Positions 43,453-56,879 are shown, counted from the stretch's first letter. The stretch: 64,000 nucleotides of DNA from Chthoniobacteraceae bacterium (GCA_028293625.1 JAQGOL010000011.1:124001-188000), one strand, 5' to 3'. Numbers and translations are program-made. Notes: generated by a model not told the origin, from the letters alone.

Positions 43453-43682
43453 GGGAAAATGGAAGGCCACCTTGGTCCAGAGCCTCGCCTGGTTCAAGCC
43501 CCGGCGCTCGTTGCGTCGAAGGAGGGAATCTCCTGCAAGCAGCCATCATCGTATATGTGAAAACATAAGAGCGAGTTTCAGTTGAACAGTTGGAAAGGCT
43601 TCGGCAGCATTGCCGGGTATGGCGGACGGCGGATTTGTCGGTTCAAACGTACTCTCTTTCCCCTTTAATTTTTACCGCCGCC

Positions 43683-46600
43683 ATGTTCCGAAGCGTCATC
43701 CCCCTTCTCCTGCTTTCCCTCCCCGCGATGTCTGCGGAACTGATCTGGGGCTCCTCGGGAAATGGCGGCAGCAGCACTTGGAATACGACTACAGCCAATT
43801 GGTTTGACGGCACCAATGCTGTCACATGGCCCACCACCACCACTGGTGGGTCCGCCATTTTTGACGGAACGCCCGGGACGGTCACCGTCTTTAACAGCCT
43901 CGTTTACGCGGAAAAGCTGGAGTTCCGCACCGCTGGATATCTCATTGAGGGCTCGTTATTAGAAAGCTCGCCGAACGGCCTGACCTTTAACACCCTCGCC
44001 GACGCTACTAGCAACGCGTCCATTTACTCCGGCGAGGGAGCAAATGCCCGCGTTTTTACCAAGACAGGCCCCGCCACACTTACGCTCAAAACCCTGGCAT
44101 TTTTCGACCAGGTAAATGTTCTTTCAGGCGAACTGCGGGCAAGCACCAGCAGTGGAGTCAATGGCTCGGCTCAATACTACTTCAATCCAAGCTCCAGCAC
44201 CCGGCTTACATTGGAGGGTTACATCGGCGATAACTTCAGTGTAGGAGGACTTCAGGGCGGGAACGCTGAAATCTATCCGCTCGATTCTTCTTCCGCCGGG
44301 AGCTCCGGCAAGCGCAGCCTTAGTATTTTCAATCGGGGCGGCAGTTTTTCCGGCGTCCTGCGGGACAACGGTGCCAATACACTGGCGCTCGCAAAATATA
44401 CAGGCAGTCAGCAGGAGCTTGCCGGCACGAATACTTACAGCGGTCCCACCACCATCTATGCCGGTGCGATTTCTTTTGCTGGTTCTGGTTCCGCATTAAA
44501 TACGGTATTCACGGTGAACTCCGGAGCGACTCTGCTGCTTGATAATACAACACTGGCCCAGTCCAACCGCATTTCAGACTCCGCGGCACTCTCACTCAGC
44601 GGCACGCTGACTCTGAAAGGCAACGCCCTTGCACCGGTATCGGAAAAAGCAGGCAATCTCATTCCTGTTGGGCTTCCGCTTGTTCAAGTGCTGGCAGACC
44701 CTTTTCAACCTGCCACCCTGACTTTTCAAAGCCTCACGCCGGCAGCTACCGGAACGGTTCTTCCGGTTTTCACAGGCACGCATCTTGGAGCCGTGTCCGG
44801 TCCGGGAGTAGCTAGCATCCGCTTTGTGAATGTTCCATCGCTTGTTGGTGGTGACGGTGCTGTCGGCTCGACTACACTCAGCATTCTGGCTGGCATATAC
44901 GGGGGCGAAGCCGGCCCTGAAAGCCTGGTCACCTATGGCGCCAACGGTGTGCGGCCGCTTTCTGAGGACGAATACCTTCACGATTCTCTAAGTGCGGGAG
45001 CCAATGTCAGTCTCACAACTCCGGTCACCGTCGCAGGGGTCCAGTCTGTGAATGCCTTGCGTGTGCAGGACGGCAGCGCGGTATTGGGCAGCGGCACATT
45101 GACGGTTGCCAGCGGCACCATCCTTGCCCTTCCAGGCAACGCCCGGCTCATGGAGAACAAACTGAATTTTGGTTCCGCCACAGGCACCATCTTCACAGTC
45201 GGCAATCTTGTCATTAAAAGTAGCATCACAGGCTCAGGTGGTTTGCGCAAAAGCGGTTTGGGCACCCTTACACTTGCCGGCGCCAACAGCTACTCCGGGT
45301 TCACCGAGATTATCGCAGGAACAGTCCGCCTGGAAAATGACTCGGCGCTTGGCAACACCGGTACCTATGTCTCCCGTGGCGCGGCCCTTGAGCTCATTGG
45401 CGGTCTTTCTATTGCCCCCAAATCGCTCGCTTTCTCCGGCAGCGGCCCCCATGGGCGGGGCGCTTTGCGCAACCTTGGCGGTGACAACGCATGGGCCGGA
45501 GACATCTACTCCGGCCTTGACGGTGTTATCGGCGTCGAGGCTGGGTCACTCTCATTTTCCGGCAATTTCAGCGACGGCTATCTTACCAAAATCGGTGCCG
45601 GATTATTGCGCTTAAGCGGCAATACCAACGAGCTTGCGAGAATCAGCCTCAGTGGCGGCACCTTGCGTTTCCAAGCGATTGCCAGCAGTTCCGCGGTTGG
45701 ACTTGACCAGATAGCCCTGAATTATGGGAGGCTTGAGCTTGCGCCTGCCGGCGTGAGCTCCGAGGCAAGCATTATCCTTTCCCGAAGGAATCCACTTACC
45801 TACACCAGCGGTGCGGCGCTGCTACTTGACCGCGGCCGGAATTCTTCGCTTACCGTCACTGTCGGCGGTCCATCAGGCCTCGATAGTCTCACCCGCGAGG
45901 AGAGCGGCACTCTGGTTATCGTGCCCGGCAGCGGACAACTCGGAACGGTGGAAAAATTGAAACTCACAACTGCTTTCATACAGCAGAACGGAATAGTGCC
46001 TTCTTCTATTGTGATGGAGGAGGCGGATTCCCAGCGCTCCGCTTCATTTCTTGCCTATGACGCCGTCGCCGGTTTCGTGCGAGCAACACCGACCGCGCCT
46101 GCCGGATCTACTCTGCAAACAGCGGGCGCCAACGCTTACTTCCTTGCCCAAACGCCGCAAACGCTTACCGCCTCCGCCTCTCTCTATGCCCTCCAGAACC
46201 AGGGACAACTCCTTGACCTCGGCACCAGTACTCTCACTTTCAATACAGCGAAGCCTGACACCGCGGGGCTTATTTTAAACGGCGGCATTATCCGAGGCGG
46301 AACGCTTCAGTTTCTTTCTGAAGCGGTCATCTATACCAGCCTGGCGGGAGCTACCATTGCCAGTGATATAAGCAGTTCCGCCTCCTTTTCCTCGTTTTTT
46401 CCAAGTACATTGACGTTTTTTGGCCCGGGCGTCGTCACTCTCAGCGGCGATGTTTCTGCTTCTCGAGGCTTTTTCATCGCCACGGTCAACAGCGGCACAT
46501 TGAAGATCGATGGAAGCCTGCAAGGGAAGATTGAAGCTCAACCGGAGGCTACACTCGCTGGATCCGGGAGAGTGAAATACGGCATCTCCGGCGGCCTCAT

Positions 46601-47183
46601 CTCTCCCGGTAGCGGCCCAGGAATCCTGACCGCCTTGCAGGTGGAGCGCGCGGAGCGGATTGTTGATTTTCGCACCGTCATCAGTCCCACCTCCTTTGCC
46701 TTCGAGTTCAGCCGTACCGGCTTGCCGGATTTCAGCCACTCCGCAGCGAGTGGCAACGATCTCCTGCGTCTCACCGACGCCACGGCGCCTTTCACGACGT
46801 TATTTGATTCCGAGACCGGAATCTCCCTCTACTTCCAAACCAATGGCCTCCAGCCCGGTGATCAGTTCTACGGCGGCTTCTACACCGATCTGCGCGCCGA
46901 TTTCTCCGCCGCATTCCAAAACGCCACCGTTTACGTTTACCAACAAGATCCCGCCGGAAGCGTCCTTTTCGGAGGTCAGCATTATTCCCTCGATAACGCC
47001 GTCAACCTTGCAATCACCACTACCCCGCTCTCCGCGGACTTTGGCGATGGGCTTATCAATGGGCAGATTATGCGGGTGCAGGTTGTCATCCCCGAGCCGT
47101 GTTCAACGGCCCTTCTTTCTATCCCGCTTGCGGTCATGGCACTCAGGCGTCGCCGCCAGGCAAGCCGGATTACTTTGGGATAA
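43683..47183 (+). CDS. Autotransporter-associated β-strand-repeat protein with PEP-CTERM tail
   Basis: A 1166-residue exported protein: signal peptide (SVIPLLLLSLPAMSAE), then β-strand repeats of the PATR type (GLRKSGLGTLTLAGANSYSG, LAGTNTYSGPTTIYAGAISF). The C-terminus VVIPEPCSTALLSIPLAVMALRRRRQ is a PEP-CTERM sorting signal: PEP motif, hydrophobic helix, basic end. It should be cut by an exosortase and displayed or released at the surface; no exosortase is in this window. It lies between proB and proA, on the opposite strand, and its end overlaps proB's 3' end by 14 bp. ATG 43683 fits the signal peptide. Confidence 0.88.
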   Translation: MFRSVIPLLLLSLPAMSAELIWGSSGNGGSSTWNTTTANWFDGTNAVTWPTTTTGGSAIFDGTPGTVTVFNSLVYAEKLEFRTAGYLIEGSLLESSPNGLTFNTLADATSNASIYSGEGANARVFTKTGPATLTLKTLAFFDQVNVLSGELRASTSSGVNGSAQYYFNPSSSTRLTLEGYIGDNFSVGGLQGGNAEIYPLDSSSAGSSGKRSLSIFNRGGSFSGVLRDNGANTLALAKYTGSQQELAGTNTYSGPTTIYAGAISFAGSGSALNTVFTVNSGATLLLDNTTLAQSNRISDSAALSLSGTLTLKGNALAPVSEKAGNLIPVGLPLVQVLADPFQPATLTFQSLTPAATGTVLPVFTGTHLGAVSGPGVASIRFVNVPSLVGGDGAVGSTTLSILAGIYGGEAGPESLVTYGANGVRPLSEDEYLHDSLSAGANVSLTTPVTVAGVQSVNALRVQDGSAVLGSGTLTVASGTILALPGNARLMENKLNFGSATGTIFTVGNLVIKSSITGSGGLRKSGLGTLTLAGANSYSGFTEIIAGTVRLENDSALGNTGTYVSRGAALELIGGLSIAPKSLAFSGSGPHGRGALRNLGGDNAWAGDIYSGLDGVIGVEAGSLSFSGNFSDGYLTKIGAGLLRLSGNTNELARISLSGGTLRFQAIASSSAVGLDQIALNYGRLELAPAGVSSEASIILSRRNPLTYTSGAALLLDRGRNSSLTVTVGGPSGLDSLTREESGTLVIVPGSGQLGTVEKLKLTTAFIQQNGIVPSSIVMEEADSQRSASFLAYDAVAGFVRATPTAPAGSTLQTAGANAYFLAQTPQTLTASASLYALQNQGQLLDLGTSTLTFNTAKPDTAGLILNGGIIRGGTLQFLSEAVIYTSLAGATIASDISSSASFSSFFPSTLTFFGPGVVTLSGDVSASRGFFIATVNSGTLKIDGSLQGKIEAQPEATLAGSGRVKYGISGGLISPGSGPGILTALQVERAERIVDFRTVISPTSFAFEFSRTGLPDFSHSAASGNDLLRLTDATAPFTTLFDSETGISLYFQTNGLQPGDQFYGGFYTDLRADFSAAFQNATVYVYQQDPAGSVLFGGQHYSLDNAVNLAITTTPLSADFGDGLINGQIMRVQVVIPEPCSTALLSIPLAVMALRRRRQASRITLG

Positions 47184-47934
47184 AATGCGTGCCGGCGGAT
47201 CCGCCGGCGGCGGCGGCGCCGATCTGGCCCGGTTTACGGCCGCTCACGATATAGGTGCAGATGCCAGCCTCGACTGCCATCTTGACGGCCTGCAATTTGG
47301 AAATCATGCCGCCCACGGAGAACTTCCCTTTCTCCTGCCGGGCCAAAGAGGCGACGCCGTCAATATCCTCAACCACCGGCACCGTGGTTCCCGCTTCATC
47401 CAAAAGTCCATCGACACTGGTCAATAAAATCAGGAGATCAGCCTTGGCCAAAATCGCCACCTCCGCGGAAAGCCGGTCGTTGTCGCCGAACTTGAGCTCC
47501 TCGACCGCCACCGAGTCGTTCTCATTGATGATCGGCACGACGGTTTTATGCTCAAGCAGGCATTCGAGCGTATTGGCGGCATTGGCGTGCCGGGTGCGGC
47601 TGTCGAGATCGCCATGGGTAAGCAGCAGCTGCGCGACATTGAGCCTGTGGGCCGCAAACATCGTGTCGTAAATACGCATCAGCTTGGATTGACCAATCGC
47701 CGCGCAGGCCTGCCGGGCGGAAAGCGCTTCGGGCCGATCTTTCATTCCCAGCGCCATCAGTCCCGCCGCCACCGCGCCGCTTGAAACCACCACGCATTGA
47801 TGTCCTGCTTTCACCAGCGCCGCCACCTCCGCGCAAAGGCGCTCAAATTGCGGTTCATCGAGGGCGTTTCCGGTCGGGTTGGCAAGGATACCGGAACCAA
47901 ATTTGACTACAATTCGTTTGGGTGTGAGAGACAT
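47170..47934 (-). CDS. proB: Glutamate 5-kinase without PUA domain
   Basis: A 254-residue amino-acid kinase that phosphorylates glutamate in proline synthesis. Motifs are IVVKFGSGIL, CVVVSSGAVAAGLMALGM, QACAAIGQSKLM, IINENDSVAVEELKFGDNDRLSA, LLTSVDGLL and GGMISKLQAVKMA. The kinase domain ends GTHFIPK and stops, so the C-terminal PUA domain of many ProB proteins (E. coli) is absent. Short forms exist in some bacteria. Its last 14 bp overlap the convergent PEP-CTERM gene that separates it from proA. Confidence 0.94.
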   Translation of the reverse strand: MSLTPKRIVVKFGSGILANPTGNALDEPQFERLCAEVAALVKAGHQCVVVSSGAVAAGLMALGMKDRPEALSARQACAAIGQSKLMRIYDTMFAAHRLNVAQLLLTHGDLDSRTRHANAANTLECLLEHKTVVPIINENDSVAVEELKFGDNDRLSAEVAILAKADLLILLTSVDGLLDEAGTTVPVVEDIDGVASLARQEKGKFSVGGMISKLQAVKMAVEAGICTYIVSGRKPGQIGAAAAGGSAGTHFIPK

Positions 47935-48065: not shown

Positions 48066-50039
48066 ATGAGCGATCTCAGCATTGAAATTGAGCGAGCCGT
48101 GCAGGCCGGACAGCTGCGTCAAAGCAGCGCGAAAAACATCGAACAAATGCTTGTTAGAACCAGCCAGCCCTCTGTTTTGGAGAGCATCACGGAACTGGTG
48201 AATGCCGGCGCATGGGAGGAACTCGATGATCGTTTCTTTAAAACCCTCGCTTTTGGGACCGGCGGCCTGCGCGGACGCACCATCGGCAAGATCGTGACGG
48301 CGGCCGAACGCGGCGAACCCCAGCCGCTCGATCGCCCGCAACGGCCTTGCGCCGGGACCAACGCGATGAATTTCTTCAATGTCAGTCGCGCCACGCAGGG
48401 TCTGGTGGCTTATTTGAAGGAGTGGCTCGCCAAGGAACAGATCCTGAGCAAGCCGAAGATCGTTGTTGCCCACGATACCCGTTATTTTTCACGCGATTTT
48501 GCGGAACTCACCGCCCGCGTCGCCATGGATAACGGATGCGACGTCTGTCTTTTTGAAGGACCCCGCTCCACCCCGCAGCTCTCCTTTACCGTGCGCCAGC
48601 AGAACGCTTTTGGAGGCATCGTCATCACCGCCAGCCATAACCCTTCCCACGACAACGGTTACAAAGTCTATTTCTCCGATGGCGCCCAAGTCGTCGAACC
48701 GCATGCGAGCGCAATTATCGCCAAGGTCAATGCGATTGAATCCGACGTTTACGAGCCGCTGCCTGAAGACGCGCAAGGAACCTTGACCGTGCTCGGCAAA
48801 GAGATCGACGAGGCTTACATGGAACGGCTCGAAACCCTCGTGCTCGACCGGCCGATGGTCGAGTCGGCCAAGGATCTGCAGATTGTTTTCACCTCCATCC
48901 ATGGGACTGGCGGCGCGATCATTAAACCGATGCTCGACCGGCTCGGCTTCCGTTATTCGACCGTGCCGGCGCAGGAAATTCCCGACGGCCGTTTTCCTAC
49001 GGTGAAATCGCCCAACCCCGAAAACGCCGAAGCGCTCTCCAAGGCGATCGAGCTGGCCAACGAAGTCGGGGCGGATCTGGTCATGGCGACCGATCCGGAT
49101 TGTGACCGCATGGGGGTGGCGGCGCGCAACCGGGAAGGCGTGATGGAACTTTTCAGCGGCAACCAGATCGGCTCCCTGATGGCCTATTACCGGGTCAAAA
49201 AACTCATCGAACAGCGCGTGATCACTTCGGACAACGCGCGCCGCTGCGTGATCATCAAGACATTCGTCACCACCGATCTTCAAAAAGCCATCGCCCAACG
49301 CAACGGCCTGCGCTGTGTGGAAACGCTCACCGGCTTTAAATATATCGGCGAAAAACTCGGCAAATACGAAGCCGCGCTGCCGATCGAACGCCGGATGAAT
49401 TACCGGATGCTGCCCGAAATCGAGACCCGCCTGCTGCGGCTCAACCATTCGAGCTATTACGTGTGCGGCGGCGAAGAGAGTTACGGTTACAGCGCCGCCG
49501 ATTTTATCCGCGACAAAGACGGCAATGGCGCCGTCGTGGTCTTTGCCGAAGTGGCCGCTTACGCCAAATCGCGGGGACTCACGCTCGATCAGCTTTTGGA
49601 TGAAATCTATTCCGACTACGGCTTTTACCTCGAGCAGAACGGCAATCTGACCTTTGAAGGAGCCGAGGGGGCGAGCAAGATCCAGAAGCTGGTGACTTCG
49701 TATGCGTCGCAACCGCCGGGCGAAGCCGATCAGTCGCCCGTGACCGAGCTGCGCAATTTTGCCGAGCAGGATTTTGTCGATATCGAAGGCGACAAAATCC
49801 CGAAGGAAAAAATGCTCATGATCGATCTGGCTGATGGACGCCGGTTCGCGGTGCGGCCGTCGGGCACCGAACCGAAGATCAAATTTTACATGTTCGGCCG
49901 CCGTTTGCCCCAGGCTGGCCGGGGCTTTACGGAAAGCGAACTGACCGAGGCGCGCCAGGAGGTCACCGCTTCACTCGCCTCGCTTTGGAGATGGATTCAG
50001 GCCGATGTGGAAAAGCGCCTCGGCCGCGACGATAGTTAA
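48066..50039 (+). CDS. Phosphohexomutase (phosphoglucomutase/phosphomannomutase family)
   Basis: A 657-residue mutase interconverting hexose 1- and 6-phosphates. It has the N-terminal FGTGGLRGRTIGK, the phosphoserine loop IVITASHNPSHDNGYKVYF, the Mg loop DLVMATDPDCDRMGVAAR, the sugar loop CGGEESYGYSA and the phosphate loop VRPSGTEPKIKFYMF. The length fits the long PGM type. It provides sugar phosphates for glycogen, envelope polysaccharide or nucleotide-sugar synthesis. It is divergent from proB and followed by a small gene 36 bp away. Confidence 0.93.
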   Translation: MSDLSIEIERAVQAGQLRQSSAKNIEQMLVRTSQPSVLESITELVNAGAWEELDDRFFKTLAFGTGGLRGRTIGKIVTAAERGEPQPLDRPQRPCAGTNAMNFFNVSRATQGLVAYLKEWLAKEQILSKPKIVVAHDTRYFSRDFAELTARVAMDNGCDVCLFEGPRSTPQLSFTVRQQNAFGGIVITASHNPSHDNGYKVYFSDGAQVVEPHASAIIAKVNAIESDVYEPLPEDAQGTLTVLGKEIDEAYMERLETLVLDRPMVESAKDLQIVFTSIHGTGGAIIKPMLDRLGFRYSTVPAQEIPDGRFPTVKSPNPENAEALSKAIELANEVGADLVMATDPDCDRMGVAARNREGVMELFSGNQIGSLMAYYRVKKLIEQRVITSDNARRCVIIKTFVTTDLQKAIAQRNGLRCVETLTGFKYIGEKLGKYEAALPIERRMNYRMLPEIETRLLRLNHSSYYVCGGEESYGYSAADFIRDKDGNGAVVVFAEVAAYAKSRGLTLDQLLDEIYSDYGFYLEQNGNLTFEGAEGASKIQKLVTSYASQPPGEADQSPVTELRNFAEQDFVDIEGDKIPKEKMLMIDLADGRRFAVRPSGTEPKIKFYMFGRRLPQAGRGFTESELTEARQEVTASLASLWRWIQADVEKRLGRDDS

Positions 50040-50462: not shown

Positions 50463-52109
50463 ATGTCCGACCAATCCGCCATTTCCGTTTCCCCGTCCAT
50501 CACCCGCCCTCCACGATCCGCGCTTCACCTTTGGCCCTGGCTTGCGGCGGCATCCAGCGGTCTGCTCCTGGCGTTTTGCTTTGCTCCCTGGAACCTCGGT
50601 CCGCTTTGCTGGATTGCGCTTACACCGCTGATTTGCGCGGTCTGGTTTTCCCGGCCCACAAAGCGCGACGGGCTTAGAAAGGCGCTGCTTGGTTATGTAA
50701 CGGGCATCGTCTTTTTCACGGCGACTTTTTACTGGCTCGGCACGCTTGGAATTCTTTTTGGGGAATTCTGGCTGCGCGGTTTATCACTGCTGCTGGCTTT
50801 GTACATGGGGCTCTACCTGTCCTTTTGGGCGTGGTTCATCAGCCGCCTCCACGATGGAGTCAGCCGATTCACCCATTCCAGCGGCAATATCGCCACCGCG
50901 CTTCTGGGCGCCTCCGCATGGGTGGCTCACGAATGGGTCCGCGGCTGGCTTTTCAGCGGATTCGGCTGGAACGGGCTGGGCGTCGCGCTTCACAAAGACC
51001 TGGCGATGATCCAGATTGTCGACATCACCGGCGTCTGGGGGTTGTCGTTCCTGGTCACGTTTTGCAATCTCATGGGCGTGATTATCGTGCGCCGGCTGCT
51101 CGCGGAAATCGGCCCGATTTTCCTGAAACGGATCCGTTGGGAATTCAGCTTCACCATGGCTTTGATCGCCGCCGTGTTCGCTTATGGAGTCCGCACGCTG
51201 ATGCACGGAAACGCCGCGGAACCGGCCACCACGGTTCGCGTTGGCATGATTCAGCCCAATACGAAGCAAACCGAGAAATGGAGCGCCGATTCCGAGAACC
51301 GAATTTTTGAGCGGCTCGACCTGCTCACCACCGCCGTCGCGCTCTCCAAACCGGACCTGATCGTCTGGCCGGAAGCGTCGACCCCGCGTGGCATGTTCGC
51401 GGATGAAACTAATTACAGCTTCATTATGAAACAGGTGGAGCAAGGCGATTTTTCATTGCTAATCGGCACGGTCGATACCGACATCGATCGCCGGGAGGAC
51501 TACAACGTCGCCACCTTGCTCAACACGCACGGCACCCAGCTTCAAACGCATAAAAAGATGCACCTCGTCCCATTCGGGGAATATCTGCCGTTGCGGACCG
51601 CGTTCCCGCTTTTTGCCATGGTAGCCGGCGAACTCGTCCCCTCGGATTTCACCCCGGGCCGCCAATTTACGGTGCTTACCCTGCCAAAACCGGCGATTAA
51701 ATTCTCCGCATTGATTTGTTTTGAAGACACCCTTGGCGATCTGACCCGGCAGTTTGTGCTCAATGGCGCGCAATTGCTCGTCAACATTACCAACGACGGC
51801 TGGTTTTTGGAAACCGCCGGAGCCGAACAACACCTCCACAACGCGCTCTTCCGGGCGGTTGAAAATCGCCGTCCCCTGCTCCGCTGCGCCAACACGGGCG
51901 TCACCTGTTCGATCGACCGCTTTGGCCGCGTGGACCGCTGGTATGAACCGTTCCGCGAAGAAGTGCAGCCGGCTCGCGAAATCCGCGTTCCAATCAACAC
52001 CGCGCACACTTTTTATGGCCGCCACGGCGATTGGCTGGCCATTGGCGCTTCCCTCGTGACGGGTCTGAACATTGCGGGCGCTGCGCTCAGACGCCGATAT
52101 GCGGCCTGA
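50463..52109 (+). CDS. lnt: Apolipoprotein N-acyltransferase
   Basis: A 548-residue membrane enzyme that N-acylates lipoproteins in the cytoplasmic membrane. Six or so N-terminal membrane segments (PWLAAASSGLLLAFCFAPWN, LGYVTGIVFFTATFYWLG, GLSLLLALYMGLYLSFWAWF and others) precede a nitrilase-type domain: Glu in LIVWPEASTPRG, Lys in THKKMHLVPFGEYLPL and Cys in FSALICFEDTLGDLT. It is the first gene of an envelope cluster. Its substrates would include the lipoproteins of this cell, such as the 8.2-9 kb product. Confidence 0.94.
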   Translation: MSDQSAISVSPSITRPPRSALHLWPWLAAASSGLLLAFCFAPWNLGPLCWIALTPLICAVWFSRPTKRDGLRKALLGYVTGIVFFTATFYWLGTLGILFGEFWLRGLSLLLALYMGLYLSFWAWFISRLHDGVSRFTHSSGNIATALLGASAWVAHEWVRGWLFSGFGWNGLGVALHKDLAMIQIVDITGVWGLSFLVTFCNLMGVIIVRRLLAEIGPIFLKRIRWEFSFTMALIAAVFAYGVRTLMHGNAAEPATTVRVGMIQPNTKQTEKWSADSENRIFERLDLLTTAVALSKPDLIVWPEASTPRGMFADETNYSFIMKQVEQGDFSLLIGTVDTDIDRREDYNVATLLNTHGTQLQTHKKMHLVPFGEYLPLRTAFPLFAMVAGELVPSDFTPGRQFTVLTLPKPAIKFSALICFEDTLGDLTRQFVLNGAQLLVNITNDGWFLETAGAEQHLHNALFRAVENRRPLLRCANTGVTCSIDRFGRVDRWYEPFREEVQPAREIRVPINTAHTFYGRHGDWLAIGASLVTGLNIAGAALRRRYAA

Positions 52110-52129
52110 GTGACTCCGTTTGCCGAGTT

Positions 52130-52894
52130 ATGAGTATCCTTTCGGCCCTCGTGGTCTCATTGCACGATGTCTCTCCACGCACCCGGCTCGATTGCACCGC
52201 AATCCTGGCGGCGTTAAAAGAGGCTGGAGTGCCGGCCTGCTCACTCCTTGTCATCCCCGATCACCATCGGCGCGGCCATTTGCTCGACGACGCGGATTTT
52301 TGCCAATGGCTGCGCGGGTTGGCCAATGAAGGGCACGAGGTGGTCATCCACGGCTACCATCATTGGCGGGAACGCCGGCCCGCCGAGCGCCTACTTCAAA
52401 AATTCCTCACCCGCCTTTACACTGCCGATGAAGGGGAGTTTTACGACCTTTCCCAGGCCGAAGCCGCCCGGCTGGTCTCAAAAGCGCGCGAAGAATTCCG
52501 TTTACTGGGACTGGATCCGGCAGGCTTCATCGCACCCGCCTGGCTCCTTGGCGCCGAAGCCGAAGCCGCACTCTGTGAACTCGGCATCCAATACACGACC
52601 CGGCTCGCCACGGTCAGTGATTTTCGCGCGGCGCCCTTCCAATCCCAATCGCTGGTCTGGAGTGTTCGCAGCCTATGGCGCCGCGTCGTCAGCCTCGGAT
52701 GGAATCTCCTGCTTTTTCGCCTCCTTAAAACGAATGCATTGATGCGGATTTCCATTCACCCGGTTGATTGCCGACATCCCAGGGTGTGGCGTCAGATCCG
52801 CGGGCTGACGGTCCGCGCGCTCACAACCCGCGTCCCACTGACTTATTTGCAATGGATCGGGCAGCGGTACGCCTATTCAGCAAAAAGTGATTGA
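52130..52894 (+). CDS. Polysaccharide-deacetylase-like protein (DUF2334)
   Basis: A 254-residue protein of the NodB/DUF2334 type. It has LVVSLHDVSPRTRLDC with the metal Asp, the GHEVVIHGYHHWRE motif with His metal ligands, and FIAPAWLLGAEAE, RISIHPVDCRH near the end. It may remove acetyl groups from a polysaccharide or glycolipid. There is no signal peptide, so it should be cytoplasmic or membrane-associated. ATG 52130 is favoured; it follows lnt by 20 bp. It precedes the PHP-glycosyltransferase gene by 114 bp. Confidence 0.85.
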   Translation: MSILSALVVSLHDVSPRTRLDCTAILAALKEAGVPACSLLVIPDHHRRGHLLDDADFCQWLRGLANEGHEVVIHGYHHWRERRPAERLLQKFLTRLYTADEGEFYDLSQAEAARLVSKAREEFRLLGLDPAGFIAPAWLLGAEAEAALCELGIQYTTRLATVSDFRAAPFQSQSLVWSVRSLWRRVVSLGWNLLLFRLLKTNALMRISIHPVDCRHPRVWRQIRGLTVRALTTRVPLTYLQWIGQRYAYSAKSD

Positions 52895-53008
52895 TCCGGT
52901 TTTTTCGCCACACAAACGGCGAGTGAATCACTCCCCGCTCTTGTCATTGAGGCGCGGCCTGATTGAACGGGCGGAAACCACATGCTCGTGGTTCCCGATT
53001 TCTAACCC

Positions 53009-55426
53009 ATGATCCCTGCCCCTGTGCGTTCTGATCTTCATCTTCATTCCCGCCATAGCGTCCGCGCCCCGGAATGGTTTTTCCGCCGGGCCGGCTTGCA
53101 GGACAGCTATTCAGAGCCGCGCGCGCTTTACGAGCAGCTCAAAGAACGCGGGATGAACTTTTTCACCCTGACCGACCACAACAGTATCCAGGGGTGCCTG
53201 GAAATTGCCGATCGCCCCGGGGTTTTTATCAGCGAACAGATCACCGCCAGTTTCCCCGAGGACCGGACTGCGGCGCATCTGCTTGTATGGGGGATTAACG
53301 AAGCGCAACACGGCGACATGCAGGCGCTTCGGGAAAATATCTACGATCTGCAGGATTATCTGGCCCGGCAGAACATCGCCCATGCGGTCGCTCATCCGCT
53401 TTATAAAACCAACGGGCGTCTCGATTTCGCGCATATTGAGAAGCTGCTTCTTCTATTTAAGCATTTTGAGGGAATCAACGGGCTCCGCGATGCGCTCCTT
53501 GGCGACGTGACCCGGTTTATTCTCAAGGGACTTACCCCGCATAAAATTGAAGAGATGGCCAATCGGCATCGACTGACGCCAACCCATTTCGAGCCCTGGA
53601 AAAAAGTGCTCATCGCCGGATCCGACGACCACGGCGGAATGAATCCGGCTTCCGCCTACACAAGCACGCCCGCGTGCGCGACCCCCGCCGAATTTCTCTG
53701 CCATATTCGTGAAAGCCGCTGTGAGATCCATGGCGCCGGCGGCAGCCCGCTCACGCTTTCCCATGGGCTCTATAATAACCTGCGCTGCTTTATCGGCGAA
53801 AAAGTGGCCGGCGCCGAGAGCTCCAGCTTCGTTGGAAAAGCGTTTTCGCGGTTCATGGAAGGCGAAGATCCGACTGAGTTTTCCTGGACGGACAAGATCG
53901 GCTTTATCGCGCAGGGGATTGCGACGGGAAAAATCTTTGAGCTGGCAAAACCGGCGCACGTATCGGTGTGGCGGCAATTTGCGGCGCACTTTTCTCAAAC
54001 TGATGTCAAGGCGCTGTTGATTGATCAAACCGCTGGGATTGTCGAACCGGAAAGACGCGCGTTTGTGATCGCGAACTTTTTTGTCAACCAGCTCGCGTTC
54101 CGTTTTTTCACGCGGTTCGTAAAGCAGGCCGCCTCGGGCAGCCTGATCGCGGCCCTTCAGGAAGTTAGTGTCATGCTGCCGATCGTTGCGACGCTGGCGC
54201 CTTACCTTTATGCATTTCGCAGCCAGGCACCCGACCGTGGATGGCTTGCGGATGTGAGCCGGCGCTTTGCCGGGGAACTGGCGCCGGCGTTAAAAAACCG
54301 CAAACGCGCCTGGTTTACCGACACGCTTGAGGACGTCAATGGCGTGGCCAACACCATTCGAAAACTCACCGCGGCGGTCGTCGCCGAGGGCAACGATCTG
54401 GTGGTCGTCACATCGCGTTCCTCCATTCAGATCAGCGATATTCCAATTAAAAATTTCCCGCCCATTGGCGAGTTTGAACTCCCGGAATACGAACTCCAGA
54501 AGCTGAGTTTCCCGCCTGTCCTGCAGATGCTCGATTACATCCATCGCGAAGGATTTACCGAGCTGATCATCAGCACTCCCGGCCCGGTTGGCATCACGGC
54601 GCTCATTGCCGCCAGGATCCTCGGGATTCGCACCAGCGGCATTTACCACACTGATTTCCCTCAATACGTGCGCATCCTCACCGATGATTCCGCGCTGGAA
54701 ACCCTCACGTGGAGCTACATGAAGTTTTTCTACGACCAGCTCGACCTCATTTATGTCAATTCCGAAAGCTACCGCCACGCCTGGATCGAACGCGGCATCG
54801 CACCGGACAAATTTCGCATCCTGCCGCGCGGCCTCGATACCACCCTCTTTCATCCTTCCCGGCGCGATCCCGGTTTCTGGGAAAAATACGGGATCGCGCC
54901 GGGCTCTCCGGTCCTGCTCTACGTCGGCCGTGTCTCCAAGGAAAAGGACCTCGATCTCATCGCCTCCATGTGGAGCAGGCTCCTTAAGGGCGAAACGCGC
55001 GAGTTCTCTCCCTCGCTTGCCATTGTCGGAGATGGCCCATATCTGAAAGAGCTCAAGGAACTCCTGCCCGATGCCGCTTTTACAGGCTATCTGGCAGGAC
55101 TCGATCTGGCGCGGGCATTTGCCTCAGCCGATCTTTTTCTCTTTCCAAGCACAACAGACACTTTCGGCAACGTGGTGCTTGAAGCGCTCGCAAGCGGCCT
55201 GCCCAACGTGGTCTCCGATCAGGGCGGACCACGCGACCTTATTACGGAGGGGAAAACCGGCTACGTCACCCGGGCTCGTGACGTGGCCGGTTTCACCGCC
55301 GCAGTACAGAGACTGATCGACGATCCGGCGCTTCGAAAAACGATGAGTCTGCAGGCTTTTGACGCGGTGCAGCAACGCGACTGGAGTGAGGCGGGCAGGG
55401 CTTTCTGGGCGATGCCAGCCGAATAA
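53009..55426 (+). CDS. PHP-domain / GT4 glycosyltransferase fusion
   Basis: An 805-residue fusion. The N-terminal ~230 residues are a PHP phosphoesterase: SDLHLHSRHSVRAPEWFFRR, FTLTDHNSIQGC and AGSDDHGGMNP near 204 supply the His/Asp metal ligands. A middle part to ~430 contains helices (VKQAASGSLIAALQEVSVM). The C-terminal ~370 residues are a GT4 glycosyltransferase: HTDFPQYVRI, VLLYVGRVSKEKDLDLI, LEALASGLPNVVSDQGGP and DLITEGKTGYV. The fusion would pair a phosphatase with sugar transfer to a lipid or polymer. Activity of neither part is proven. It is in an envelope cluster with lnt and the DUF2334 gene. Confidence 0.88.
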   Translation: MIPAPVRSDLHLHSRHSVRAPEWFFRRAGLQDSYSEPRALYEQLKERGMNFFTLTDHNSIQGCLEIADRPGVFISEQITASFPEDRTAAHLLVWGINEAQHGDMQALRENIYDLQDYLARQNIAHAVAHPLYKTNGRLDFAHIEKLLLLFKHFEGINGLRDALLGDVTRFILKGLTPHKIEEMANRHRLTPTHFEPWKKVLIAGSDDHGGMNPASAYTSTPACATPAEFLCHIRESRCEIHGAGGSPLTLSHGLYNNLRCFIGEKVAGAESSSFVGKAFSRFMEGEDPTEFSWTDKIGFIAQGIATGKIFELAKPAHVSVWRQFAAHFSQTDVKALLIDQTAGIVEPERRAFVIANFFVNQLAFRFFTRFVKQAASGSLIAALQEVSVMLPIVATLAPYLYAFRSQAPDRGWLADVSRRFAGELAPALKNRKRAWFTDTLEDVNGVANTIRKLTAAVVAEGNDLVVVTSRSSIQISDIPIKNFPPIGEFELPEYELQKLSFPPVLQMLDYIHREGFTELIISTPGPVGITALIAARILGIRTSGIYHTDFPQYVRILTDDSALETLTWSYMKFFYDQLDLIYVNSESYRHAWIERGIAPDKFRILPRGLDTTLFHPSRRDPGFWEKYGIAPGSPVLLYVGRVSKEKDLDLIASMWSRLLKGETREFSPSLAIVGDGPYLKELKELLPDAAFTGYLAGLDLARAFASADLFLFPSTTDTFGNVVLEALASGLPNVVSDQGGPRDLITEGKTGYVTRARDVAGFTAAVQRLIDDPALRKTMSLQAFDAVQQRDWSEAGRAFWAMPAE

Positions 55427-55727
55427 TTTATATATCGAGGCGCCCGAAAGAGCGCGGCGTTTCCCGGTCGTATCCAGCGACTTAGCACGTGCCGACACGA
55501 AAACGCCGCATTTTCGTGTCCTCGATTTTACACTTAAACGCTTGCTCGGGGCCCAATGCCGTGTAGCTGAGAGGCCAGCACACAGCATCTTCGGCGCTTT
55601 GATGTGGCTCAAAGCGCGGATCATGAAGTCGGCTACCGGACCGGATGAGAAAGGCTGCCTGGAGGCTTCCTTTTGATCGCGTCAGTTAATTATTTTATTC
55701 AGCTTTAAAAATCAGGCCGGTATTCCG
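55427..55727. other. Gene-free gap with two hairpins
   Basis: This 301-bp gap has no credible gene. Two inverted repeats stand out: GACACGAAAA (55494-55503)/TTTTCGTGTC (55511-55520), and GCGCTTTG (55594-55601)/CAAAGCGC (55610-55617). The last 60 bp are AT-rich (TTAATTATTTTATTCAGC), which may contain the promoter of the acyltransferase. No known riboswitch or RNA family was recognised. Confidence 0.5.
55494..55530 (+). terminator. Possible terminator after the PHP-GT gene
   Basis: A perfect 10-bp stem GACACGAAAA/TTTTCGTGTC with a seven-base loop (CGCCGCA) lies 68 bp after the stop, followed by CTCGATTTTAC. The U tract is weak, so it may be an RNA-processing or attenuation hairpin rather than an intrinsic terminator. 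Confidence 0.45.
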
Positions 55728-56879
55728 GTGCGTATGGACCATTTTCAAACTACTCTCCCCAGAGCTCAAAACCCCGGCCAGCGTATTTCCGCTTTCGATG
55801 GAATTCGCGGGGTGGCAGCCCTTTACATTGTATGGGGTCACTTGTACACCAAATTTTTTGTTCTGCTTCCGTCGCTTACCGTATTTTCGTGGTTGATACG
55901 CCGCAGCAATTTTGCCGTTTGTTTATTTTTCTTAATTAGCGGGTTCATCACGATGCTCGTTTCAGAAAAGAAGATAAAAGTGCTCACACCAACGAGCTAT
56001 TTTCGTTTTCTAACGGACCGATTTATTCGTTTATATCCGGCGTATTTGGCCGCGCTGTTGCTGGTTGTTGGAATGGTAAGCGTGGCGCACCTTATCCGAT
56101 GGCGGGTGAATGTACCGCTGAACGTCCCCTTTCCTATAACATCGCTTCCCCTGGAAGTCCTTATGGTTCAGCATTGGCGGCCTGGCTTTGTCTCCTGGAA
56201 CTATCCGGCCTGGTCAATCAGCGTGCTTTGGTGGTGCTGCATTTTTCTATTCCCGGTGCTCTTTTTTGTGGTGCGAAAAGTCACGGACTGGCGATTGCTC
56301 TCATTGATTGTTGTTTTTCTTGTTGGTGCTTACGCATCCATCCGCTCACAAAATCCCAGCGATGAAATAGGTATTTGGATAGTGCTCATTTCACGGGTCA
56401 CTTTCCCTTTTGCTATCGGTGCGATCCTTTTTGCCATCTGGCGTGAAAAAGGAGCGCCGCCGCCGTGGCTGGCAAACCTCACCGCGACCGCGGGGGTCGG
56501 CGGTTTTTTAGGCGCCCATTATTTTGCTCCGGCGATGGGGCTCATTGCCACGACTACCGTCATCACTTCCCTTATCCTTGTTGTACTAAGCGCGGGCTGG
56601 CCGAGTTCATTTATTTATTCCATCATGGAAAAACCGCTGTTTGTCAGCCTGGGCAAGGCGTCCTACTCCATTTACCTTTCCCACTCCGTGGCTGAACGCG
56701 TCGCGGTGGCCCTGATGCCGCCTAATAGCTACGTGAACGAAAGTTTTCTCATCCGGTTTATTGTTTTCCTTGGCTACCTCGCTCTTCTGGCCGGGGGTAT
56801 TGCCGCCTTCTATTTCATCATTGATCGGTCCTGTGAAAAACTGCATCGGACCTGGGCGCGAAAACTTTCCGCAAACTAA
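55728..56879 (+). CDS. Acyltransferase-3 family membrane protein (OafA-like)
   Basis: A 383-residue polytopic protein with about ten membrane segments. It opens with the family motif ISAFDGIRGVAALYIVWGHL and has the conserved RFLTDRFIRLYPAYLAALL. Later motifs are WSISVLWWCCIFLF and KASYSIYLSHSVAERV. Such proteins transfer acetyl or other acyl groups to sugars in surface polysaccharides. The start may be GTG 55728 or ATG 55734. It is the last gene of the envelope cluster that starts with lnt. The target sugar is unknown. Confidence 0.9.
   Translation: MRMDHFQTTLPRAQNPGQRISAFDGIRGVAALYIVWGHLYTKFFVLLPSLTVFSWLIRRSNFAVCLFFLISGFITMLVSEKKIKVLTPTSYFRFLTDRFIRLYPAYLAALLLVVGMVSVAHLIRWRVNVPLNVPFPITSLPLEVLMVQHWRPGFVSWNYPAWSISVLWWCCIFLFPVLFFVVRKVTDWRLLSLIVVFLVGAYASIRSQNPSDEIGIWIVLISRVTFPFAIGAILFAIWREKGAPPPWLANLTATAGVGGFLGAHYFAPAMGLIATTTVITSLILVVLSAGWPSSFIYSIMEKPLFVSLGKASYSIYLSHSVAERVAVALMPPNSYVNESFLIRFIVFLGYLALLAGGIAAFYFIIDRSCEKLHRTWARKLSAN

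Follow-up and report, generated by a model that had tools for sequence, protein, structure and literature searches.

What might be made by four adjacent genes of a Chthoniobacteraceae bacterium (GCA_028293625.1), and do all four belong together? The genes occupy positions 50,463-56,879 of the 64,000-nt stretch of DNA that was analyzed as a whole (JAQGOL010000011.1:124001-188000, hereafter the window), and were flagged by the original prediction as a candidate envelope glycolipid locus of four genes on the same strand. Profile searches confirmed all four open reading frames, all on the + strand, and the domains named for them; the PHP domain is weak in the window protein and recurs in its relatives. 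An ATG at 52130 is the better start of the DUF2334 gene. The features, in coordinates of the window, are:

48066-50039, PGM/PMM-family protein, upstream of lnt (family-level match)
50463..52109, + strand, lnt, apolipoprotein N-acyltransferase (TIGR00546), a neighbor outside the conserved unit
52130..52894, + strand, DUF2334/COG3233-type deacetylase, GpgD-like, 254 aa (PF10096, NF053788)
53009..55426, + strand, PHP-GT4 fusion of 805 aa, downstream member of the conserved pair (full-length homologs at 80 loci)
53009..53782, + strand, PHP half of the fusion, residues ~1-258 (PF02811, 21.8 bits)
53801..54283, + strand, helical linker of the fusion, residues ~265-425 (predicted structure)
54293..55423, + strand, GT4 half of the fusion, GT-B fold, residues ~429-805 (PF13692, 105 bits)
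55728..56879, + strand, Acyl_transf_3 acyltransferase (94.8 bits), outside the conserved unit

The acyltransferase gene is followed by dnaG and rpoD. Conservation of gene order in Verrucomicrobiota, which the original prediction had named as its first check, was examined at 80 loci, each encoding a relative of PHP-GT4 that is full-length or close to it (53-76% identity for full-length homologs), nearly all of them labeled Chthoniobacterales, Spartobacteria or Verrucomicrobia. It holds for two of the four genes. The DUF2334 gene lies directly upstream of PHP-GT4 on the same strand at 64 of the 75 loci with enough flanking sequence, usually abutting or overlapping it (median spacing approximately -9 nt, a rough figure taken from alignments), and the pair is carried by the isolate Chthoniobacter flavus Ellin428; thus, the deacetylase-like gene is indeed tied to the fusion. 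In contrast, Lnt, which scores 310 bits against TIGR00546 (equivalog cut-off 132.9), is directly upstream of the pair at just 9 of 51 loci, and the acyltransferase is found at none of the 80. The acyltransferase gene has a GC content of 0.503 and a GC3 of 0.555 (0.645-0.712 for the GC3 of its neighbors), and in several relatives dnaG comes right after PHP-GT4 with the acyltransferase missing; it is probably a recent insertion of foreign composition ahead of dnaG. The conserved unit is therefore DUF2334 plus PHP-GT4, and a four-gene locus that includes Lnt and the acyltransferase is ruled out by synteny and composition. The hexose mutase that was suggested to feed the locus is also discarded: the PGM/PMM-family gene adjoins the pair in a few close relatives only, and because its top NCBIfam matches are far under cut-off, its sugar is left at the family level.

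The DUF2334 protein scores 89.6 bits against PF10096, which is over the cut-off, and carries the NodB-like metal and catalytic motifs of a CE4-like enzyme, namely HD (residues 12-13), HGxxH (74-78), FxAPxW (133-138) and HP (210-211), which are 93-100% conserved among 65 homologs. It also matches the model for GlcNAc-phosphatidylglycerol deacetylase, GpgD (NF053788), over profile positions 2-240 of 241 with 187.7 bits. GpgD belongs to gpgSDF, a set consisting of a GT4, a deacetylase and a flippase that makes glucosaminyl-phosphatidylglycerol (GlcN-PG) in Pseudomonas aeruginosa (PMC12713373); for the 16:0/18:1 species, that study reports GlcN-PG at m/z 908.58 and GlcNAc-PG at m/z 950.59 (+161 and +203 relative to PG). 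The score of the DUF2334 protein is below the curated cut-off of 280, which was reached by none of 288 genomes drawn from the phylum and none of 117 from the order of the window genome. At E<=1e-15 the GpgD model found no match in any of 14 control genomes, whereas the DUF2334 family as such was matched in seven of them; therefore, the GpgD match is specific.

The partners of this pair lie outside the flagged region, not among the neighbors first grouped with it. The best GpgS match of the genome (278 bits against NF053787, curated cut-off 480) is a GT4 on contig 5 that adjoins a 224-aa GNAT protein; in the structural model the latter has a GNAT fold with the HAT-like domains of SsHAT and O-GlcNAcase as its nearest relatives. 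The two pairs are on different contigs in the window genome, no GpgF-type flippase was found near either, and neither of its two UPF0104 proteins matches the GpgF model (NF053789). Elsewhere the genes come together. Another family of the same class (f9) has GpgS-like, GNAT, DUF2334 and PHP-GT4 genes contiguous in that order; two genomes of another class (clusters L126 and L121) have GpgS-like, GpgF-like flippase, DUF2334, GNAT and PHP-GT4 genes together, the flippase of L126 scoring 121.9 bits against NF053789, under its cut-off; and a further genome (G143) has contiguous GpgS-like, GNAT and DUF2334 genes without PHP-GT4.

Sampling covered one phylum, as the draw of 288 genomes and the 117 genomes of the order, plus the 14 controls. 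Among the 288, GNAT (counted if >250 bits) is present in exactly the 16 genomes in which a GpgS-like gene is accompanied by a GpgD-like one; 15 of the 16 also carry PHP-GT4, as do 18 further genomes of the draw. Co-occurrence of the GpgS-like and GpgD-like genes in 16/288 genomes (p 4e-23, a value that ignores relatedness and, like the other p-values, is inflated by it) and in 93/117 is accompanied by recurrent joint losses and by clusters rearranged across families, both of which are independent of the p-values. Within the order, all four genes are present in 91/117 genomes and the GpgS-like gene adjoins GNAT in 76/95; GpgS-like, GpgD-like and GNAT genes are jointly missing in 12/117, and all four in 7/117 (two 0.9-Mb genomes, one of the genus of the window genome and four of one other genus). 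Some absences of single genes are presumably gaps in draft genomes. Distant relatives in Deinococcus were the only GNAT matches in plasmid searches, which found no PHP half. DUF2334 and PHP-GT4 are half of a conserved four-gene module in Verrucomicrobiota. PHP-GT4 also occurs without the other three genes in approximately 16 genomes of the phylum draw and a few of the order, and therefore has a role independent of them; inspection by eye of the neighbors listed for these genomes revealed no recurring cluster around it. No lipid data were found for organisms carrying the module.

The AlphaFold2 model of PHP-GT4 (mean pLDDT 87.7, pTM 0.84) consists of two domains joined by an all-helical linker, in which confidence is lower at residues ~260-320 and to which no Pfam family matched. 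The top structural match is MshA (3c4q; Z 39.8, rmsd 2.6 over 358 residues), with other retaining GT4s, BshA among them, close behind; the whole model was used as the query and the match list was filled by GT folds, so this search speaks for the GT half alone. The GT-B fold is joined by the donor-site residues R641, K646 and D717-x7-E725 ([DE]x7E), and R641, E645, K646, D717, G720 and E725 are invariant in 29 diverse members. The best family model of PHP-GT4 is GpgS, at approximately 110 bits, but the contig-5 GT fits that model far better, for which reason PHP-GT4 is rejected as the GpgS ortholog. A tree that included 12 other GT4s from the window genome recovers the PHP-GT4 and GpgS-like proteins each as a single group (support 100/99), and the two are sister clades among the sampled GT4s of the genome (86/90). 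Membership of the module, adjacency, co-loss, folds, and the GT and deacetylase motifs are established by the analysis.

The interpretation favored, with moderate confidence, is that the DUF2334/PHP-GT4 and GpgS-like GT4/GNAT pairs constitute a Gpg-like pathway for a cationic aminoglycolipid of Verrucomicrobiota. At the cytosolic face, phosphatidylglycerol or a similar lipid would receive GlcNAc from the GpgS-like GT4, with UDP-GlcNAc as the donor; the DUF2334 enzyme would strip the acetyl group to leave a free amine, by which the lipid would gain positive charge; PHP-GT4, as the sister GT, would attach a second sugar to that lipid or else glycosylate a related acceptor; and the GNAT protein would probably acylate or otherwise alter the amine. 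We infer the donor, the acceptor, the order of the steps, the role of GNAT and the attachment of the PHP-GT4 sugar to the same lipid. In support of the pathway, the DUF2334 protein matches GpgD specifically and over its whole length, the module genes co-occur, and their order varies yet links all of them. The originally predicted envelope glycolipid function is likely, but the accompanying statement that no named pathway has this set does not stand, as a GT4 with a deacetylase is the logic of gpgSD, published in 2025 (PMC12713373).

An unlikely alternative is that PHP-GT4 itself is the GlcNAc-lipid synthase that supplies DUF2334, and that the product of the GpgS-like/GNAT pair is another lipid. 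PHP-GT4 and DUF2334 are the tightest link in the module, and the GT half resembles MshA and BshA, for which UDP-GlcNAc is the donor; but in the phylum draw the GpgD-type DUF2334 tracks GpgS-like and GNAT genes more closely than PHP-GT4, the cluster of G143 dispenses with PHP-GT4, and the GpgS model gives 278 bits to the GpgS-like GT versus 111 to PHP-GT4. A low probability is likewise assigned to action of the unit on a non-lipid acceptor, such as a polysaccharide, a lipoprotein glycan or a small molecule: every score is under its equivalog cut-off, enzymes of the GT4 and DUF2334 families act on many acceptors, and the likeness to gpgSDF would then be at the family level only, but the S and D steps clustered with a GpgF-like flippase in two genomes of another class reproduce the three-part gpgSDF signature.

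The PHP half scores 21.6-21.8 bits in the window protein, just under the Pfam cut-off of 26.4; among 22 relatives, 12 match PF02811 and all 22 weakly match a CehA/McbA-type metallohydrolase model, and a PHP profile searched against PDB sequences found at best a putative metal-dependent phosphoesterase (3e0f, E 0.16). The HxH motif, D56, H129 and E154 are nearly invariant. Residue 77, which we take to be the usual position of the metal-bridging Glu of PHP enzymes, is Gln in 46 of 107 homologs, including the window protein, in which the canonical metal site is thus incomplete; E76, beside it, might stand in for the bridging Glu. H57, H90, D206 or H208 has been lost in several lineages in which the GT site is intact. 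That the PHP half removes a phosphate, within the one polypeptide, from what the GT produces or from its acceptor and so drives transfer, as first proposed and as a phosphatase and a deacetylase follow MshA in mycothiol synthesis, is quite improbable because of these changes in metal-site residues, despite the MshA-like GT half, the residues that are conserved, and the combination of a GT, a phosphoesterase-type fold and a deacetylase in one unit. A more elaborate form of the Gpg-like pathway, which is put forward tentatively, would have the GpgS-like GT4, GpgD-like deacetylase, GNAT acyltransferase and PHP-GT4 produce a previously undescribed cationic glycophospholipid with two sugars, amino sugar included. 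In that form the PHP half would act on the phosphate or the head group of the lipid, or would bind lipid or metal without catalysis.

The genes for GlcN-PG were identified only in 2025 and in one Gram-negative pathogen (PMC12713373). If the Gpg-like pathway is correct, an enlarged related set, near-universal in the order (all four genes in 91/117 genomes), would make control of membrane charge by amino sugars common in a major environmental phylum. Unannotated PHP-GT4 fusions would gain a candidate pathway, with the caution that the PHP half may lack phosphatase activity.

Mycothiol synthesis by MshA, MshA2 and MshB proceeds through a retaining GT4, then dephosphorylation, then deacetylation. 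MshA is the closest fold to the GT half of PHP-GT4, but the deacetylase of mycothiol synthesis is of the LmbE/PIG-L type, whereas here it is DUF2334 and the PHP site is non-canonical. The PHP half aligns, with weak scores, to models of the CehA/McbA-type and TrpH/RNase AM-type PHP phosphoesterases, and differs from both in its fusion to GT4 and in the replacement of the bridging Glu by Gln in the clade of the window protein. A literature search returned no relevant PHP domain-glycosyltransferase fusion among its titles and abstracts. The hexSDF genes of Clostridioides difficile encode a GT, a deacetylase and a flippase that produce an aminosugar glycolipid (PMC10128005, as compared in PMC12713373); as described in PMC12713373, they share the GT/deacetylase/flippase logic and their lipid already bears a second sugar, but that description makes no mention of a PHP fusion or GNAT. 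To gpgSDF the likeness lies in a GT4 with a DUF2334/COG3233-type deacetylase, co-occurring and clustered (contiguous with GNAT in f9 and G143), in a UPF0104 flippase that joins the cluster in a second class of Verrucomicrobiota, and in the top-scoring NCBIfam models of the S, D and F relatives, which are gpgSDF's own. Because the Verrucomicrobiota scores miss the curated equivalog cut-offs, the module is not assigned to gpgSDF itself, and its lipid or sugar may differ from that of gpgSDF; moreover, the set of the window genome is split over two loci with no linked flippase. Relative to gpgSDF, the module has two additional genes, PHP-GT4 and GNAT.

The half of the four-gene module that is absent from the window locus, a GpgS-like GT4 and GNAT pair, is present on contig 5 of the same genome, where a thioredoxin-reductase-like gene adjoins it.

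L132:6249-8404 (equivalent to L002:791-2946), contig 5: GpgS-like GT4 and GNAT pair

In the window itself, positions 43590-47183 encode a long, secreted-looking, repeat-rich protein with a PEP-CTERM-like C-terminal end, and this gene overlaps the 3' end of an opposite-strand glutamate 5-kinase-like gene (47170-47934).

In G152, a one-contig genome, PHP-GT4 reads as two frames (contig 1, L106:6498-8989), one holding the PHP half and the other the linker and GT half, through either a real fission or a frameshift. At four other loci (L026, L027, L040, L072), several PHP ligands are substituted (H57R, D206N, H208R) and DUF2334 is not adjacent to PHP-GT4; in two of the genomes concerned it is weak or absent. 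A Chthoniobacterales-type DUF2334/PHP-GT4 pair also lies on a contig assigned to an Acidobacteria MAG (L038), probably through a binning error.

In another class of the phylum, genes of family c76, encoding proteins of about 320 aa with a signal-peptide-like start, adjoin PHP-GT4 or GpgS-like genes; the L126 member has no match in Pfam or NCBIfam.

L126:4652-5602: c76 family member
L121:1557-2522: c76 family member
L122:4979-5959: c76 family member

None of the four module genes is present in G318, a genome of the window's genus, despite its 96% completeness; recent loss within the genus is probable. On contig 3 of G143 (L138), GpgS-like, GNAT and DUF2334 genes are contiguous without PHP-GT4, and this cluster could reveal the product of the core pathway in the absence of PHP-GT4.
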